Source of the DNA: Paludibacteraceae bacterium
GTDB lineage: Bacteria > Bacteroidota > Bacteroidia > Bacteroidales > Paludibacteraceae
DNA length: 49,940 nt
Direction: 5' to 3'
NCBI GenBank assembly: GCA_017450605.1
Contig: JAFSTG010000028.1
Location: 1-49,940, forward strand
Of the stretch, positions 2 to 26,471 are shown in pieces. Positions within the stretch are counted from its first letter, which is position 1; every line of letters starts with the position of its first letter. The position numbers and the translations under genes were made by a program. Under the pieces are notes generated by a model that worked only from the letters and a program-made list of their open reading frames with translations, searched no databases and was not told the origin of the DNA.

Positions 2-112
2 TCGCTAACAGGCAAAATGCACCTTACAGATTTACTCAACAAAACTAATTTTCAAAATGACAAAGAACACCTTGATTCAAGTGAACCGTTATTGTTTGAC
101 TTTAATTTTTAA
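2..112 (+). CDS. 3' end of an unrecognised gene (partial)
   Basis: A reading frame enters the window at its left edge and stays open for 36 codons to a TAA at 110-112. The visible tail is polar and ends in the residues EPLLFDFNF. It contains no motif that I can assign to a family. It ends 63 bp before the preferred lysA start, so it could be the last exposed part of a real upstream gene on the same strand. Such a short open frame in AT-rich DNA can also arise by chance, so confidence is limited. Confidence 0.4.
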   Translation, partial: SLTGKMHLTDLLNKTNFQNDKEHLDSSEPLLFDFNF

Positions 113-175: not shown

Positions 176-1327
176 ATGCAGTTTCCGATTGAGAATTTCA
201 GGGAGTTGACGACTCCGTTTTATTATTATGATATGGCATTGTTTGAGCGTACGGTAAAGGCAATGCTTGAAAGTGCATCGAACGTTGATTATAGTGTTCA
301 TTATGCAATAAAAGCATGTTCTGCTTCTGAAATTTTGGAAGTGATTAGAAGGTACGGTTTAGGTGTGGATTGTGTATCTGGTTGGGAGGTTAAGGCAGCC
401 TTGAATGCGGGAATAATGCCTCAGAAGATAGTGTTTGCGGGTGTTGGGAAGCAGGATGCAGAGATAGAGTCGGCAATAGATGCCGATATATTCTGCTTCA
501 ATGTGGAATCGGTTGAAGAGTTGGAGATAATAAATCTTATAGCCGGCAAGAAATGTAAGAAAGCACGAGTATGCTTGCGTATTAATCCTGATATTGACGC
601 ACATACTCATCATCATATAACGACCGGTCTGAAAGAAGATAAGTTCGGTATTCAGATGGAAGATATGGAAAAGGCAGTAGCTTTGTGCCAACAGTTGCAT
701 AATATTGAGTTTATTGGTTTGCATTTCCATATAGGTTCCCAGATAACCGAAATGCAACCGTATATAGACTTATGCAGTCGTGTAAACGACCTTGTTGGTA
801 GTCTTGAGAGCAAGGGCTTTGAAGTGAAGAATATAAATGTAGGCGGTGGCTTGGGAATTGATTACAAAGAGCCAGACGAACACAGTATTCCTGATTTTGC
901 GAGTTTCTTCGGTGTGTTTAAGAAACATTTGAGGCTTCGCAGTGGTCAGACACTACATTTCGAATTAGGTCGTTCGTTGGTTGGTCAGTGTGGTTCGCTT
1001 ATTACGCGCGTTATATACGTTAAACACGGTAAGGAGAAAAACTTTGTGATAGCAGATGCAGGCATGACAGATTTGATCCGTCCTGCTTTATATGGTGCTT
1101 ATCATCGTATAGATAACCTGACAAGCAGTTCGTCGGAGTACGGTGTTTATGATGTTGTAGGACCGATATGTGAATCGTCGGATGTGTTTGTTCGTGATTA
1201 TAAAATGCCTTTGACTCAGCGTGGAGACCTCTTGGCGATACGTTCTGCGGGGGCATACGGTGAAGTGATGGCATCGCAATACAACATGCGTCCATTGCCA
1301 AAGCATATAATAAGTGCGGTAGATTAG
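176..1327 (+). CDS. lysA: Diaminopimelate decarboxylase
   Basis: This cytoplasmic PLP enzyme removes CO2 from meso-diaminopimelate to make lysine, the last step of the pathway. It is a fold-type III (alanine racemase-like) barrel followed by a beta domain. Visible motifs are YAIKAC near residue 45 (the lysine that binds PLP), GLHFHIGSQ, the phosphate-binding GGGLGI, ELGRSLVG, CESSDVF (active-site cysteine) and AGAYGEVMASQYNMRP near the C-terminus. Length (383 residues) is normal for the family. I chose the ATG at 176 because the protein then starts MQFPIENFRELTTPFYYYD, like other Bacteroidales LysA. The extra residues from the ATG at 137 are encoded by AT-rich intergenic-type DNA. The stop codon overlaps that of the convergent TIR gene by 3 bases. 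Confidence 0.95.
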   Translation: MQFPIENFRELTTPFYYYDMALFERTVKAMLESASNVDYSVHYAIKACSASEILEVIRRYGLGVDCVSGWEVKAALNAGIMPQKIVFAGVGKQDAEIESAIDADIFCFNVESVEELEIINLIAGKKCKKARVCLRINPDIDAHTHHHITTGLKEDKFGIQMEDMEKAVALCQQLHNIEFIGLHFHIGSQITEMQPYIDLCSRVNDLVGSLESKGFEVKNINVGGGLGIDYKEPDEHSIPDFASFFGVFKKHLRLRSGQTLHFELGRSLVGQCGSLITRVIYVKHGKEKNFVIADAGMTDLIRPALYGAYHRIDNLTSSSSEYGVYDVVGPICESSDVFVRDYKMPLTQRGDLLAIRSAGAYGEVMASQYNMRPLPKHIISAVD

Positions 1328-2460
1328 TTGGCCAGCATTACATCGTCGGTGCCGCAGGGCATGAAGAGTGTATCGGCAAGTGCTTTGCCATCGAGCCATA
1401 CAATGTAGAATTGCGCTTGTTGCTCGATAGGAAGCGAGAGGCTGACGGCACCATCGGCATCGGGTCTGATTGTGTGTTCGGAAATGACGAGTTGGTGGTT
1501 TTCAGGATGTGGTATTCCGCGTAGTCGGAAACTGATATTACCATATAGTGCTTCATCGCGGCTTATAGGTAAGGTTTGAGCGGTGGCAAGCGTGATAGTG
1601 GTATCAACGGGTAAGTACCCTGAGGCTGTTAGGGTGCATCTTACTTGTTTACCGATAAAACGGCGAGGAATATTAGAGAATGTAACCTGTTGTGTTATAG
1701 TGAGGCTATCGAGAGTCTTCGTTTCGTTTTCCAGAAATAGAGTGAGTGAAGCATCTTCAGCAGCGGGCAGATTGGCGTTAGCAAAAGTCTGTTCGCTGAG
1801 GTTTATATTGACATCAACACTTCTGCTAAAATGCCATGTCAGTGCTATCATACACAAGACTGCGATGATGAGTGTTGCTATAGTTATTCGCTGTCTGCGA
1901 CGACGGCGCACCTCCCTGTTCCATAGGTTATCGAACTCGAGGTTGAGCATTCGTGCTATTACCATGAGTACAGCACGGCGTCGTTTCCAATTTTTGCTTC
2001 CTGCTCCTTCCTCGTTGATGTTCACGCCGAGAATCTGGTGATCGAGCATAGGGTCGGCATTCTTAGGAAAATGCCGGCGCAGTGCTTCTGGGAAGCACTC
2101 AGTCTCGGGGTCGCCGGAGTAGGGGATGCCTTCAACGATGAGCGGCACTATATGGTCGCGTCTGCCCAGATTGACGAAGTAGTCGATACCACCATTTACA
2201 AATGTTGATTTTGCCGAACGTGGTGAGCATACAACAATCAGATATTCGGACTGCTCCATGCGGAGTTTTAGTTCGTCCATCAGTTCTTCCGACAGGTTGA
2301 TATCGTTAAGATAGCAGAAGCATGGTCGCATGCGGCGAGGCAGGTCTTTCGAACGGCTGATAGCAGTAGGCAGGCGATAACTCTCTATCGCCTTTTGGAC
2401 CCAAAGTGCTTCTTTGGCATCGCTACTTTGGAAACTGATAAAAGCAAAATACTTGTACAT
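1324..2460 (-). CDS. TIR-domain protein with one membrane helix and a periplasmic C-terminal region
   Basis: The N-terminal ~160 residues are a bacterial TIR domain (TIR_2 type). It starts KYFAFISF and includes ESYRLP, LSEELMDEL, YLIVVCSP, the segment around residues 83-95 and GRRDHIVPLIVEG. A basic stretch at 184-191 (EVRRRRRQR) precedes one membrane helix at about 192-211. By the positive-inside rule the TIR domain is cytoplasmic and the ~165-residue C-terminal part is periplasmic. That part looks all-beta and may be two modules; I do not recognise it. Bacterial TIR domains usually cleave NAD+ to make signals or deplete it. Where relatives (recalled, not aligned) have the catalytic Glu, in an S-x-W-x-x-x-E pattern, this protein has Gly91, so activity is uncertain. 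The gene follows the TM-macro gene by 58 bp on the same strand. The pairing suggests Thoeris-like immunity or stress signalling. Confidence 0.85.
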   Translation of the reverse strand: MYKYFAFISFQSSDAKEALWVQKAIESYRLPTAISRSKDLPRRMRPCFCYLNDINLSEELMDELKLRMEQSEYLIVVCSPRSAKSTFVNGGIDYFVNLGRRDHIVPLIVEGIPYSGDPETECFPEALRRHFPKNADPMLDHQILGVNINEEGAGSKNWKRRRAVLMVIARMLNLEFDNLWNREVRRRRRQRITIATLIIAVLCMIALTWHFSRSVDVNINLSEQTFANANLPAAEDASLTLFLENETKTLDSLTITQQVTFSNIPRRFIGKQVRCTLTASGYLPVDTTITLATAQTLPISRDEALYGNISFRLRGIPHPENHQLVISEHTIRPDADGAVSLSLPIEQQAQFYIVWLDGKALADTLFMPCGTDDVMLAN

Positions 2461-2518
2461 GGAGAGTGAACAGATTTCTTATTTTTAATTTCTTATTTCT
2501 AAATTTATTTCCGGCTAT

Positions 2519-3442
2519 TTACATCATAGGTCGTTTGGCAAGGTGGTCGATGATAGTGGCATAGTGTGGGAAATCGACTTCCGACATGTTACTTTCGTGA
2601 ACGCAGATACGCAGTGTGCGGCAACAAGCTTTCTCGCGTGCTGCCATGAAGAAAGTCTGTATCATGAGGTCGATTTTCTGTTCGGTAGAGAACTCGGCAG
2701 GCAGGTCAACAAATCTGTTGCCCATAACAGCCACATTCACTTCGTCTTGTCGTAATGTCGGAGTGGATAGATTATGCCACATGGCGAGCAGAAACTCGGT
2801 ATATTCCTTGCGGGTGATGGCGATACTGCCGTTTGCCTGCAGGTGGGTGAAACTGACCATACAATAAGTATCGGAGCCAAGAGTAATGGGGCAAACAGTG
2901 CCGAGTTGGTAGCGTTGTCGGTTGGCAGGCAATGTATCGTCGGTTGCTATAGGTTCCTGAAAACGCAAACCTTCGGTTATTGCCTTGTCGATGTCGAAAT
3001 TATTCTCTTTGCATTTCTGTAAGAAAGCACCATGTACCGAACGTGGTGAAATGACAGTTCCGAGTGCGGTATCGAATGTGTCAACGCAATGTATCACTCG
3101 CATACCTTGTTGGCTGAACAAATCGCAACATTCGACAATTACTCGCAGGTCGCTGCTCGCATCTTTATATACCGCTTTTGTTTTCGGCCAGTTGATAATA
3201 AGCCCTATGAGCATAAGAATAAGTACGGCAACGATAAGAGTTGACGGATGTTCGAAAGGAAGGTGCACAAGATGATAGAGCAACATATACGGCCTTGAAT
3301 ATTCGGTTTCTTTAGGCAGTACGTTGAGAAGAGCATCGGAAAAAGTAATAACCATTCCGAAACCGACAATAGTAGTTTTAAGAGCCGATAAAATCAGTTC
3401 TTTCCAGTGGCGTCCTAAAAATTTGATTTTAGCGTTGAACAT
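2519..3442 (-). CDS. Two-helix membrane protein with ThsA-type macro domain (DUF6430-like)
   Basis: The 307-residue protein has two predicted membrane helices, at about 17-40 and 66-85. A cytoplasmic domain follows, beginning LRVIVECCDLF at ~99. The segment RVIHCVDTFDT (115-125) followed by ISPRSVHG (131-138) matches the pattern I recall for the macro domain of type II Thoeris ThsA effectors (formerly DUF6430). In that system the domain binds a TIR-made His-ADP-ribose and the membrane part kills or arrests the cell. The later stretch VNVAVMGNRF takes the place of the usual glycine-rich loop. I use the ATG at 3442. A TTG at 3457 would extend the protein by five residues but abuts the previous stop codon. 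The gene lies 15 bp after the lipoprotein gene and 58 bp before the TIR gene, so co-transcription is likely. The family call rests on recalled motifs. Confidence 0.75.
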   Translation of the reverse strand: MFNAKIKFLGRHWKELILSALKTTIVGFGMVITFSDALLNVLPKETEYSRPYMLLYHLVHLPFEHPSTLIVAVLILMLIGLIINWPKTKAVYKDASSDLRVIVECCDLFSQQGMRVIHCVDTFDTALGTVISPRSVHGAFLQKCKENNFDIDKAITEGLRFQEPIATDDTLPANRQRYQLGTVCPITLGSDTYCMVSFTHLQANGSIAITRKEYTEFLLAMWHNLSTPTLRQDEVNVAVMGNRFVDLPAEFSTEQKIDLMIQTFFMAAREKACCRTLRICVHESNMSEVDFPHYATIIDHLAKRPMM

Positions 3443-3457
3443 ACTGTTTGTTTGCAA

Positions 3458-5056
3458 CTATTTGCGTCGAGTGGTAGAAGTAGAAGAGCCTCTGCCGGTA
3501 TTATTGTCGGTTGCTTTGCGTGTTGTAGAACTGCTTGATGCCGAGCGGGTAGCAGAGCCTGATGCGGAGCGGTTGGTGTCGGTTGAGGCAGCAGAGCGTG
3601 AAGTAGAGTTGCTTGTTGCGCTTCGGGTTGTAGATGTGGTGCTACTCTTGGTGCTGCGTACTGTACCACTGGTGCTTACGCGTGTTGTAGTGCTGGTGGT
3701 GCGAGTTGCAGAGGCATTAGTAGAAGTTCGAGTTGTGGCGGGAGTTGTGGTCGGGGTTGAAGAAGTTGTGGTTGACGACTTCTGAGTGGGCTGTGAAGTA
3801 GTACGAGTAGTACTTGAGCCTGAGTTTGTATTGTCAGTTCTTGTTGTAGTTCCCGACGAAGTGCGAGTGGTGCTCGTACCACTTGTAGTTCCCGACGAAG
3901 TGCGAGTGGTGCTCGTACCGCTTGTAGTGCCCGACGAAGTGCGTGTGGTACTTGAAGAACTTGTAGTGCCCGACGATGTTCGTGTGGTACTCGAAGTGGT
4001 ACCTTTATTACCGGTTGTTGTGTTTGCGGCAGTGCGGGTGGTAGAAGTAGAGGTTTTGCTGTTAGAAGTGGTAGAAGTAGCTCCTCTGCCGGTATTACTT
4101 GTGGTGGTAGTGGTAGAGTTGTTGGCTACGCGGCGTACGTCAGAAGCATTATTAACACGCTGACTTGTGTTACTGCCTGACGGAGTATAGCGGATATCGG
4201 CGGTACGTGTAGCAAAACTCTTTTCAGGATGCTGACGTTGGTAGTCGTTGCGGGCAACCGAGTTGCTGAGTGCGGCGTAGTTGGTGTAATGCGGCTTAGC
4301 AGGATATTGAACTTCGTGGCAATAGTGATGCCCATGCATGTATGTTGTTACATAAGCCTGATAGTGACTCAGATATTGCGGAGCGGGTTTGCCATAATGT
4401 GATGGGAAGTGGTCCCAATAATATGGCGAATGCCATGGAGTGTATCCGTGTCGTCCTAAAGGTGCGAAGATAGGCGGTGTTTTAACAAATACGGGTTGGA
4501 TTATGTAGTTGGTACCATAGATGTATGGTGCTCCTATTATTTGACAATAAGGAGTGCTAAAACCGAGTTCAACTACGAGAGTCGCCACGTCCTGATATAT
4601 ATTAGGAGCGAGTACCGACTGAATAACAAACACGTGGTTATATCCGTTCACCACTTCCATAACTCGAAGGTAGTCAACCCAACCATCGCCATTAAGGTCG
4701 AGGTTCGAAATCATGTAGCGTGAAGAGTTGAGTATCATTTCGAACTCCTGAACGGAAGATGCCTGTGCAAATGCAGCTGCTACGGCTTGTAGGTCGAGGT
4801 GCAGACAAATGTCGCGTGTGGCTGCATTCACCTCGATCACTGTAGTGGTAGATTTGCCAGTTGCCGGTTTGATGGTGGTGGTTGTTGAAACAGGTGTGTT
4901 GTAGATGACAGTGGTTGCCGGTTGGGTAGTTACCACGGTGGTAGTAGCAGGGGGAGGGGGAGTTGGGGTAGAAGTTGCTACGGTAAGTAGTGTGGTAAGA
5001 CAACTTGTGCAGCACAATGCCACGAGAAGTGTTGAAAGAAAGCGAACGGATTTCAT
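3458..5056 (-). CDS. Ser/Thr-rich lipoprotein with EF-hand-like segment and repetitive tail
   Basis: A lipoprotein signal peptide ends in the lipobox-like CTSC (Cys19), so the protein is probably lipid-anchored in the envelope. A Thr/Pro-rich linker follows. A compact domain of roughly residues 75-210 carries NLDLNGDGWVDYLRVME, an EF-hand or dockerin-like calcium loop common in a family of uncharacterised Bacteroidota proteins. A His/Tyr/Pro-rich region (about 210-290) comes next. The last ~220 residues are almost entirely Ser, Thr, Arg and Asn, including a 13-residue tandem repeat, TSSGTTSGTSTTR. The tail may be glycosylated or extended. The gene lies 20 bp after the NrnA-like gene and 15 bp before the TM-macro start, so it sits inside the same likely operon. 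I do not know its function. Confidence 0.8.
   Translation of the reverse strand: MKSVRFLSTLLVALCCTSCLTTLLTVATSTPTPPPPATTTVVTTQPATTVIYNTPVSTTTTIKPATGKSTTTVIEVNAATRDICLHLDLQAVAAAFAQASSVQEFEMILNSSRYMISNLDLNGDGWVDYLRVMEVVNGYNHVFVIQSVLAPNIYQDVATLVVELGFSTPYCQIIGAPYIYGTNYIIQPVFVKTPPIFAPLGRHGYTPWHSPYYWDHFPSHYGKPAPQYLSHYQAYVTTYMHGHHYCHEVQYPAKPHYTNYAALSNSVARNDYQRQHPEKSFATRTADIRYTPSGSNTSQRVNNASDVRRVANNSTTTTTSNTGRGATSTTSNSKTSTSTTRTAANTTTGNKGTTSSTTRTSSGTTSSSSTTRTSSGTTSGTSTTRTSSGTTSGTSTTRTSSGTTTRTDNTNSGSSTTRTTSQPTQKSSTTTSSTPTTTPATTRTSTNASATRTTSTTTRVSTSGTVRSTKSSTTSTTRSATSNSTSRSAASTDTNRSASGSATRSASSSSTTRKATDNNTGRGSSTSTTRRK
3852..4007 (-). repeat. Four tandem 39-bp repeats inside the lipoprotein gene
   Basis: Four copies of a 39-bp unit start at 3852, 3891, 3930 and 3969. 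Copies 1 and 2 are nearly identical and copies 3 and 4 more diverged. Each encodes the 13-residue unit TSSGTTSGTSTTR or a variant on the minus strand. The unit is a multiple of three, so copy-number change would alter tail length without breaking the frame. Confidence 0.9.
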
Positions 5057-25761: not shown

Positions 25762-26382
25762 TTATGCTGAGTCGGTATTAGTCTCGTCGATAATTTTGCA
25801 ATAACGACGTACAGTAGCACGGCAGACATGTAACTTACGGCTTATATGGTTGATTGAGGCTCCTTTAGAACGCATGCGTATTATAGCTTTCTCGTGTTTA
25901 TAGAGTTTATATGCTTCGCGTGATGAGCGTTTGCCGTTAGGTCGTCCGATGCGGACTCCTTCTGAGCGTTTACGGGCAAGTGCCTCTTTGGTGCGCAAAC
26001 TGATAAGTTCGCGTTCTATTTCAGCCGACAGACCGAAGGCAAAGGCAAGCACTTTCGACTGTATGTCGTCGCCCAACCGGTAGCCGTCTTTGATAGTCCA
26101 TACACGACATTCCTTACTCATGCAGATATTGAGTATCTCCATTATCATGAAAAGGTTTCTGCCGAGGCGCGATAGTTCGGTGCAGATGATGATGTCGTCT
26201 TTGTGTACTCTGCGAAGCAGTTGACCTAATTGCCGCTTTTTGTAGGTTTTGATACCAGAGATTGTCTCTTCTATCCAACCGTCGATCGGCATCTGTTTGT
26301 GACTGCAAAATTGTGTTATTTCGAAACGTTGGTTTTCAACTGTTTGCCGGTCGGATGAGACACGAATATAGCCGTAAATCAT
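25762..26382 (-). CDS. Serine recombinase, Mpi-like DNA invertase
   Basis: The protein is a 206-residue small serine recombinase of the resolvase/invertase family. The catalytic motif is YGYIRVSSDRQT, with Ser9 as the predicted nucleophile. It is followed by ICTELSRLGRN (catalytic Arg residues), LAFAFGLSAEIERELI and the arm segment RTKEALARKRSEG. The C-terminal helix-turn-helix (about 165-200, ASINHISRKLHVCRATVRR) binds DNA. The sequence closely follows the pattern that I recall for Bacteroidota master invertases such as Mpi of Bacteroides fragilis, which flip many capsule promoters. I chose the ATG at 26382 because the conserved domain starts there; an in-frame start at 26430 adds an unrelated 16-residue extension. 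No invertible promoter was found beside it, fitting a regulator that acts at distant sites. Confidence 0.9.
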   Translation of the reverse strand: MIYGYIRVSSDRQTVENQRFEITQFCSHKQMPIDGWIEETISGIKTYKKRQLGQLLRRVHKDDIIICTELSRLGRNLFMIMEILNICMSKECRVWTIKDGYRLGDDIQSKVLAFAFGLSAEIERELISLRTKEALARKRSEGVRIGRPNGKRSSREAYKLYKHEKAIIRMRSKGASINHISRKLHVCRATVRRYCKIIDETNTDSA

Positions 26383-26471
26383 GGCAGTTGATGAGATTAA
26401 GTGTTGGTTTGTTGTAGAGCATGTAGGCAAAAGCTATGCCGAAGGGAAAGGTGAAAAATGAAAGGAGATAA

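Follow-up and report, generated by a model that had tools for sequence, protein, structure and literature searches.

Does a TIR gene beside a ThsA-type effector gene signal in the manner of Thoeris when the TIR protein is itself anchored in the membrane? The question is raised by a gene pair in the window, as we call the whole 49,940-nucleotide stretch of a Paludibacteraceae contig analysed here. In type II Thoeris the TIR protein ThsB makes His-ADPR, which is the signal (PMC11204291). The first-pass annotation, made from the letters alone, had read the window's pair as a possible membrane-anchored variant of type II Thoeris, responding to an event at the envelope.

Architecture and distribution of the gene pair

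The basic arrangement was confirmed, namely a two-helix macro protein with a TIR gene directly downstream on the same strand (Table 1). The annotation had named the fold of the C-terminal domain as one of two points on which its reading hung, and the window protein does carry a ThsA macro domain (PF20016) with a clear macro fold. The TIR protein has the fold of NAD-cleaving TIR enzymes, while a PDB sequence search with it returned no match; its own membrane helix and an exported part of about 165 residues, both as first described, are predicted by hydropathy and by the structural model. At least two hydropathy windows make up the N-terminal helices in 21 of the 22 paired ThsA proteins, L028 having one long window.

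Table 1. Features of the gene pair and of the partner genes in the same genome
Feature	Position	Strand	Basis or comment
ThsA-type TM-macro gene	2519..3457	-	PF20016 match 2.1e-33; TIR gene adjoining, 22/22 loci
ThsA start codons	ATG 3442, TTG 3457	-	
ThsA hydrophobic segment 1, residues 21-39	3341..3397	-	hydropathy; predicted helix 18-46 in model
ThsA hydrophobic segment 2, residues 63-88	3194..3271	-	hydropathy window 63-81; predicted helix 71-88 in model
Macro domain of ThsA, residues 92-310	2528..3184	-	
Altered ligand loop N247-R248-F249-V250 (EcThsA S217-G218-I219-T220)	2708..2719	-	Asn first: 22/22 paired, 0/15 control ThsA
TIR-TM gene	1324..2460	-	same strand, downstream of ThsA
TIR domain, residues 1-175	1936..2460	-	residue match to solved TIR domains
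TM helix of TIR protein, residues 189-213	1822..1896	-	hydropathy; predicted helix 176-212 in model
Exported part of TIR protein, residues 214-378 (~165), mostly beta strands	1327..1821	-	model
G91 codon GGT, catalytic glutamate column	2188..2190	-	Gly 22/22 paired, Glu 20/20 unpaired sisters
TPR protein (509 aa), then LRR_5 protein (938 aa, InlB-type repeats)	L103:7671-12125		contig C103, not the contig of the pair

ThsA_Macro was found in 3 of 393 genomes of the order and 4 of 395 of the phylum (the window's own genome counted in both), and in 22 of 178 genomes of the genus, 21 with a strong match and one, G795, with a weak one (E 8.7e-14); strong matches in the genome search were confined to this one genus. 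A scan of named genomes produced 134 candidate stretches and from these 20 loci, each in a record labelled Paludibacteraceae or Bacteroidales bacterium; from the overlap that we infer between the two sets, the strong loci number 22 once duplicates are merged (L028-L031, L053, L082-L097 and the window). The two genes keep together in these related genomes, which was the annotation's second point: at all 22 loci the TIR gene lies downstream of ThsA in the same orientation, with at most 62 bases between them or an overlap in 21, and 2,034 bases in L089. Plasmid searches gave 75 records with ThsA matches, all below 60% identity, and six with TIR matches at 26-30%; two scans of viral contigs confirmed no relative of the pair.

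Other features of these genomes are recorded here in their own right. At L098:6237-8411, G795 encodes a TM-macro protein and two TIR proteins, one of them ThsB-like and of soluble size, and both TIRs retain the glutamate; this is a separate system, with the look of a canonical type II Thoeris, in the genus to which the pair belongs. Directly upstream of ThsA in the window lies a gene (3458-5056, minus strand) whose 532-aa product has a very long tail rich in Ser and Thr and gave no match in a Pfam search, and at 25762-26430 (minus strand) there is a serine recombinase of the DNA-invertase type, named by eye from its translation. Promoter and terminator scans gave nothing above chance.

The catalytic glutamate is replaced in paired TIR proteins

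Aligned with their relatives, the paired TIR proteins carry glycine in the column of the NAD-cleaving glutamate (helix C) in 22 of 22 cases, whereas 20 of 20 unpaired sisters carry glutamate. By eye, the glutamate is also present in seven more distant TIR relatives (L021-L027) and in all 12 ThsB/TIR proteins inspected at other TM-macro loci; these twelve are nine canonical proteins from seven loci and three, read over their first 110 residues, from L005-L007, and represent 10 of the 15 control ThsA loci. The 20 sisters are 19 full-length unpaired loci, all that the genus list holds except G950:C22, together with G003 from the order; 13 further TIR matches, mostly of other architectures, were left out, among them G950:C22 (a 399-aa frame, nearly full length). 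No ThsA match was found in the fetched stretches of the 20 unpaired loci, and the TIR-TM profile matched 44 of the 178 genus genomes at 1e-10, paired ones included. We assign the paired TIR to a TIR-TM family whose fetched members outside the paired group lack a neighbouring ThsA; it does not look like a soluble ThsB with an added anchor, and the earlier expectation that it makes His-ADPR as ThsB does is not supported, given the glycine. What survives of the Thoeris reading is the ThsA-type effector arm with its adjacent TIR; the active-site glutamate of ThsB does not.

The substitution does not stand by itself. Several TIR positions, including F10, Q11, N52, N89 and G91, have changed together in the paired proteins; the position of E125 is acidic in 21 of 21 paired proteins counted and in 0 of 20 sisters, and E58, a candidate catalytic residue, is kept in 20 of 21. 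In the tree a branch with support 100/99 sets the paired proteins apart from the rest, with a single label change, although the tool warned of long branches meeting between the paired group and six unpaired rows. Between the window and L096, L089 and L028 the TIR part is 84-88% identical and the exported part 42-44%; dN is 0.016 against a dS of 0.565 for L029/L083, and well below dS in the pairs close enough to measure. This is not what a decaying gene would look like, and we take the Glu-less TIR domain to be under strong constraint. A search of the window's own genome for a second TIR that might supply the signal gave none over the Pfam cut-off and one place at E 0.24; as that genome is 84% complete, such a gene could be missing from it.

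Glutamate-bearing sister operons carry other putative effectors

Glutamate and effector type change together, since a match to an RCK channel or a RyR domain occurs at 17 of the 20 Glu-bearing loci and the glycine goes with TM-macro, RCK or RyR matches being found at 0 of 22 paired loci (some of these stretches are short: L053 3.2 kb, L085 4.7 kb). Ten Glu-bearing loci have an RCK-type channel at least 60% identical to that of L036 (the query itself counted; the L032 channel is cut by its contig and that of L144 is in two pieces), and two have a distant relative at 26-27% identity. Five have an RyR match, in whole proteins adjoining the TIR gene in L039 and L147, and over about 100 residues, kilobases from the TIR gene, in L038, L146 and L148; neither kind was found in L034, L037 and L140. 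Seven channel proteins were scanned with Pfam RCK: four scored over the cut-off, one below it, and two gave nothing. The Glu-bearing operons (L033, L035, L036, L139 and others) share the TIR-TM architecture of the pair, and 17 of 20 have a TPR relative in the fetched stretch, but they keep the glutamate, and the TM-macro protein is replaced in them by an RCK channel or RyR match.

Several of these arrangements merit description for themselves. At L036:7186-14184, and likewise in L033, L035, L139 and L141-L145, the Glu-bearing TIR-TM gene directly adjoins one that encodes a channel of RCK type, about 615 aa long, in most cases together with a TPR gene, and from this layout a TIR-gated channel system is possible. 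In L039:7032-10719 and L147:6666-10353 the TIR-TM gene lies between those for an RyR-domain protein and the TPR protein. A PrsW-family intramembrane protease gene adjoins the TIR-TM gene at L148:9118-9819; the Pfam match is in L148 alone, with similar ORFs in L038 and L146. RyR-domain proteins of phages cleave or sequester cADPR signals (PMC13232231), which fits the nucleotide link that we infer for the Glu-bearing group; a literature search on RyR, TIR and CASTOR gave unrelated work only, among the matches listed.

The ligand pocket of the macro domain is remodelled

Pocket residues were numbered after EcThsA (PMC11204291). All 22 paired proteins retain D112 and H287 (the EcThsA D83 and H259 equivalents), while the EcThsA loop S217-G-I-T220 has become N-[RKS]-[FL]-[VT], nearly invariant across the 22, and the K262 position is Asn in all of them. 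The 15 control ThsA proteins comprise 10 picked from the 75 plasmid records, four that other searches of Bacteroidota supplied, and that of L098; at S217, 12 of them have Ser and none has Asn. Plain loss of the ADPR site was dropped as an explanation: because G218, T220 and K262 vary among ordinary ThsA too, the loop change is no proof of lost binding. On these comparisons the pocket is altered and tightly held, and not clearly dead or empty. In published ThsA structures this loop contributes to both ligand binding and dimer stacking; in other ThsA proteins ligand binding leads to stacking of the macro domains, with the beta8-alpha6 loop in the stacking interface (PMC11204291).

TPR and LRR_5 proteins, predicted to be secreted, accompany the pair

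A TPR gene whose product is predicted by eye, from the N-terminus, to be secreted follows the pair and is linked to it in 18 of 22 loci, an LRR gene intervening in L095; the LRR_5 products were judged in the same way. Two of the four exceptions run into a contig end (L085 and L087), and of their genomes G938 has a TPR match within its Glu-bearing locus, while no TPR match was found in G867. The other two, the window's genome and G944, have a TPR relative on another contig, whose nearest counterpart, at 55-56% identity, is the TPR protein encoded at the L097 ThsA locus, and in G944 this gene is followed by a 1,030-aa ORF.

Where a further gene stands after the TPR gene (16 loci), it encodes an LRR_5 protein on the same strand in 14, the exceptions, L029 and L083, having an unrelated gene there and no LRR gene. 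All 15 proteins scanned (from the 14 loci, with a second from L095) match LRR_5 at E 0.001 or better; the one score given is 26.4 bits, below the curated cut-off of 27.7. Chance adjacency was ruled out: the window's genome has 42 LRR_5 matches in only about 16 frames, so the association is far above background. The operon is larger than first described and often, though not always, has four genes, for the TM-macro, TIR-TM, secreted TPR and secreted LRR_5 proteins. The idea of an envelope-side trigger gains weight because these secreted proteins are linked to the pair.

How might the system work?

Gene order, predicted helices and folds, the change from Glu to Gly, conservation and partner genes are most readily brought together, in a tentative explanation that we favour at somewhat under an even chance, if the pair makes up the inner-membrane half of a system that faces the envelope, in which a Glu-less TIR acts as adaptor on the macro effector with no nucleotide between them. 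An event at the cell surface, perhaps attack by phage or on the envelope, would be registered by the LRR and TPR proteins together with the TIR protein's exported part, which changes fast, whereupon the TIR domains would cluster; lacking the glutamate, these would make no nucleotide and would instead serve as a protein adaptor which, by direct contact, drives macro domain stacking or ceases to restrain it. Stacked macro domains would gather the two-helix segments of ThsA, and damage to the inner membrane would follow. In evolutionary terms, our best reading is of an envelope-facing TIR chassis with exchangeable effectors, which acquired an effector of the ThsA type while its own enzyme was lost or altered; the TIR of the ThsA branch is most likely a non-enzymatic transducer.

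The main rival, which we think unlikely, keeps the TIR as an enzyme whose catalytic residue has moved, making a different NAD-derived ligand that the remodelled macro pocket reads. The concerted change of TIR positions and the acidic residue at E125 in the paired group alone speak for it, as does a macro loop altered in the same loci yet nearly invariant, as a ligand site would be, and retention of D112 and H287 counts against the adaptor reading; against the rival, the candidate E58 is not invariant, and the standard position carries Gly without exception, and in no case Asp or Gln. Somewhat less probable is a TIR that acts as a brake, antitoxin-like, with ThsA fired by ADPR, NAD+ or another enzyme's ligand once the brake is lifted: the close, fixed pairing and the adenine contact kept in ThsA would suit this, but the own genome offers no other TIR gene over the cut-off. 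An envelope-homeostasis or development switch built from the same parts, with no role in defence, ranks just below; it would account for the secreted TPR and LRR_5 partners, for the lack of relatives found in viral contigs and for strong matches in a single genus, but not for the patchy occurrence within that genus (21 of 178 strong) and the flanks that differ at most loci, which resemble defence cassettes. Ordinary type II Thoeris with an anchored ThsB making His-ADPR has the gene pair and the Pfam and PADLOC names on its side, and is nonetheless very improbable given a glutamate absent in 22 of 22, a TIR of a different family and an altered macro loop.

Relation to known systems and implications

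Type II TM-macro Thoeris of E. coli CFT073 and B. amyloliquefaciens Y2 shares with the pair the effector's Pfam family and fold and an adjacent TIR gene; the pair differs in that its TIR is without the catalytic glutamate and bears a TM helix and an exported part, in its altered macro loop, and in the linked TPR and LRR_5 genes. The TM-macro loci L005-L007 instead pair the effector with a glutamate-bearing ThsB of soluble size (174-191 aa). We do not file the pair as type II Thoeris because its TIR does not pass as a ThsB, though the effector arm is Thoeris-like. Among the titles and abstract openings searched, we recognised neither a Glu-less ThsB nor an operon of TM-macro, TIR-TM, TPR and LRR_5 genes.

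Animal Toll-type receptors pair a TIR domain with extracytoplasmic LRRs, and MyD88 is a non-catalytic TIR adaptor. The pair and its partners resemble them in the layout of TIR and extracytoplasmic LRR and in the TIR as adaptor, but the LRR is of BspA type and on a separate protein, so that the likeness is one of layout and does not imply descent. That the operon is a bacterial counterpart of a Toll-type pathway, with secreted LRR/TPR sensing, a non-enzymatic anchored TIR and direct contact to a membrane-damaging macro effector, is possible but doubtful; if true, it would be a Thoeris-like system with no nucleotide messenger, while the Glu-keeping sister operons would drive channels or RyR proteins with the same chassis.

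The Pfam and PADLOC names indicate Thoeris for loci that may signal otherwise. A ThsA-type effector keeps its partner TIR across 22 loci though the signal-making residue is gone and the domain is strongly constrained, and as the genus also has Glu-bearing sisters with different effectors, in some cases within a single genome (G938, G856), the question is directly testable. Either bacterial TIR domains can act as pure adaptors in such operons, as certain animal TIR domains do, or they carry out a TIR chemistry so far undescribed.
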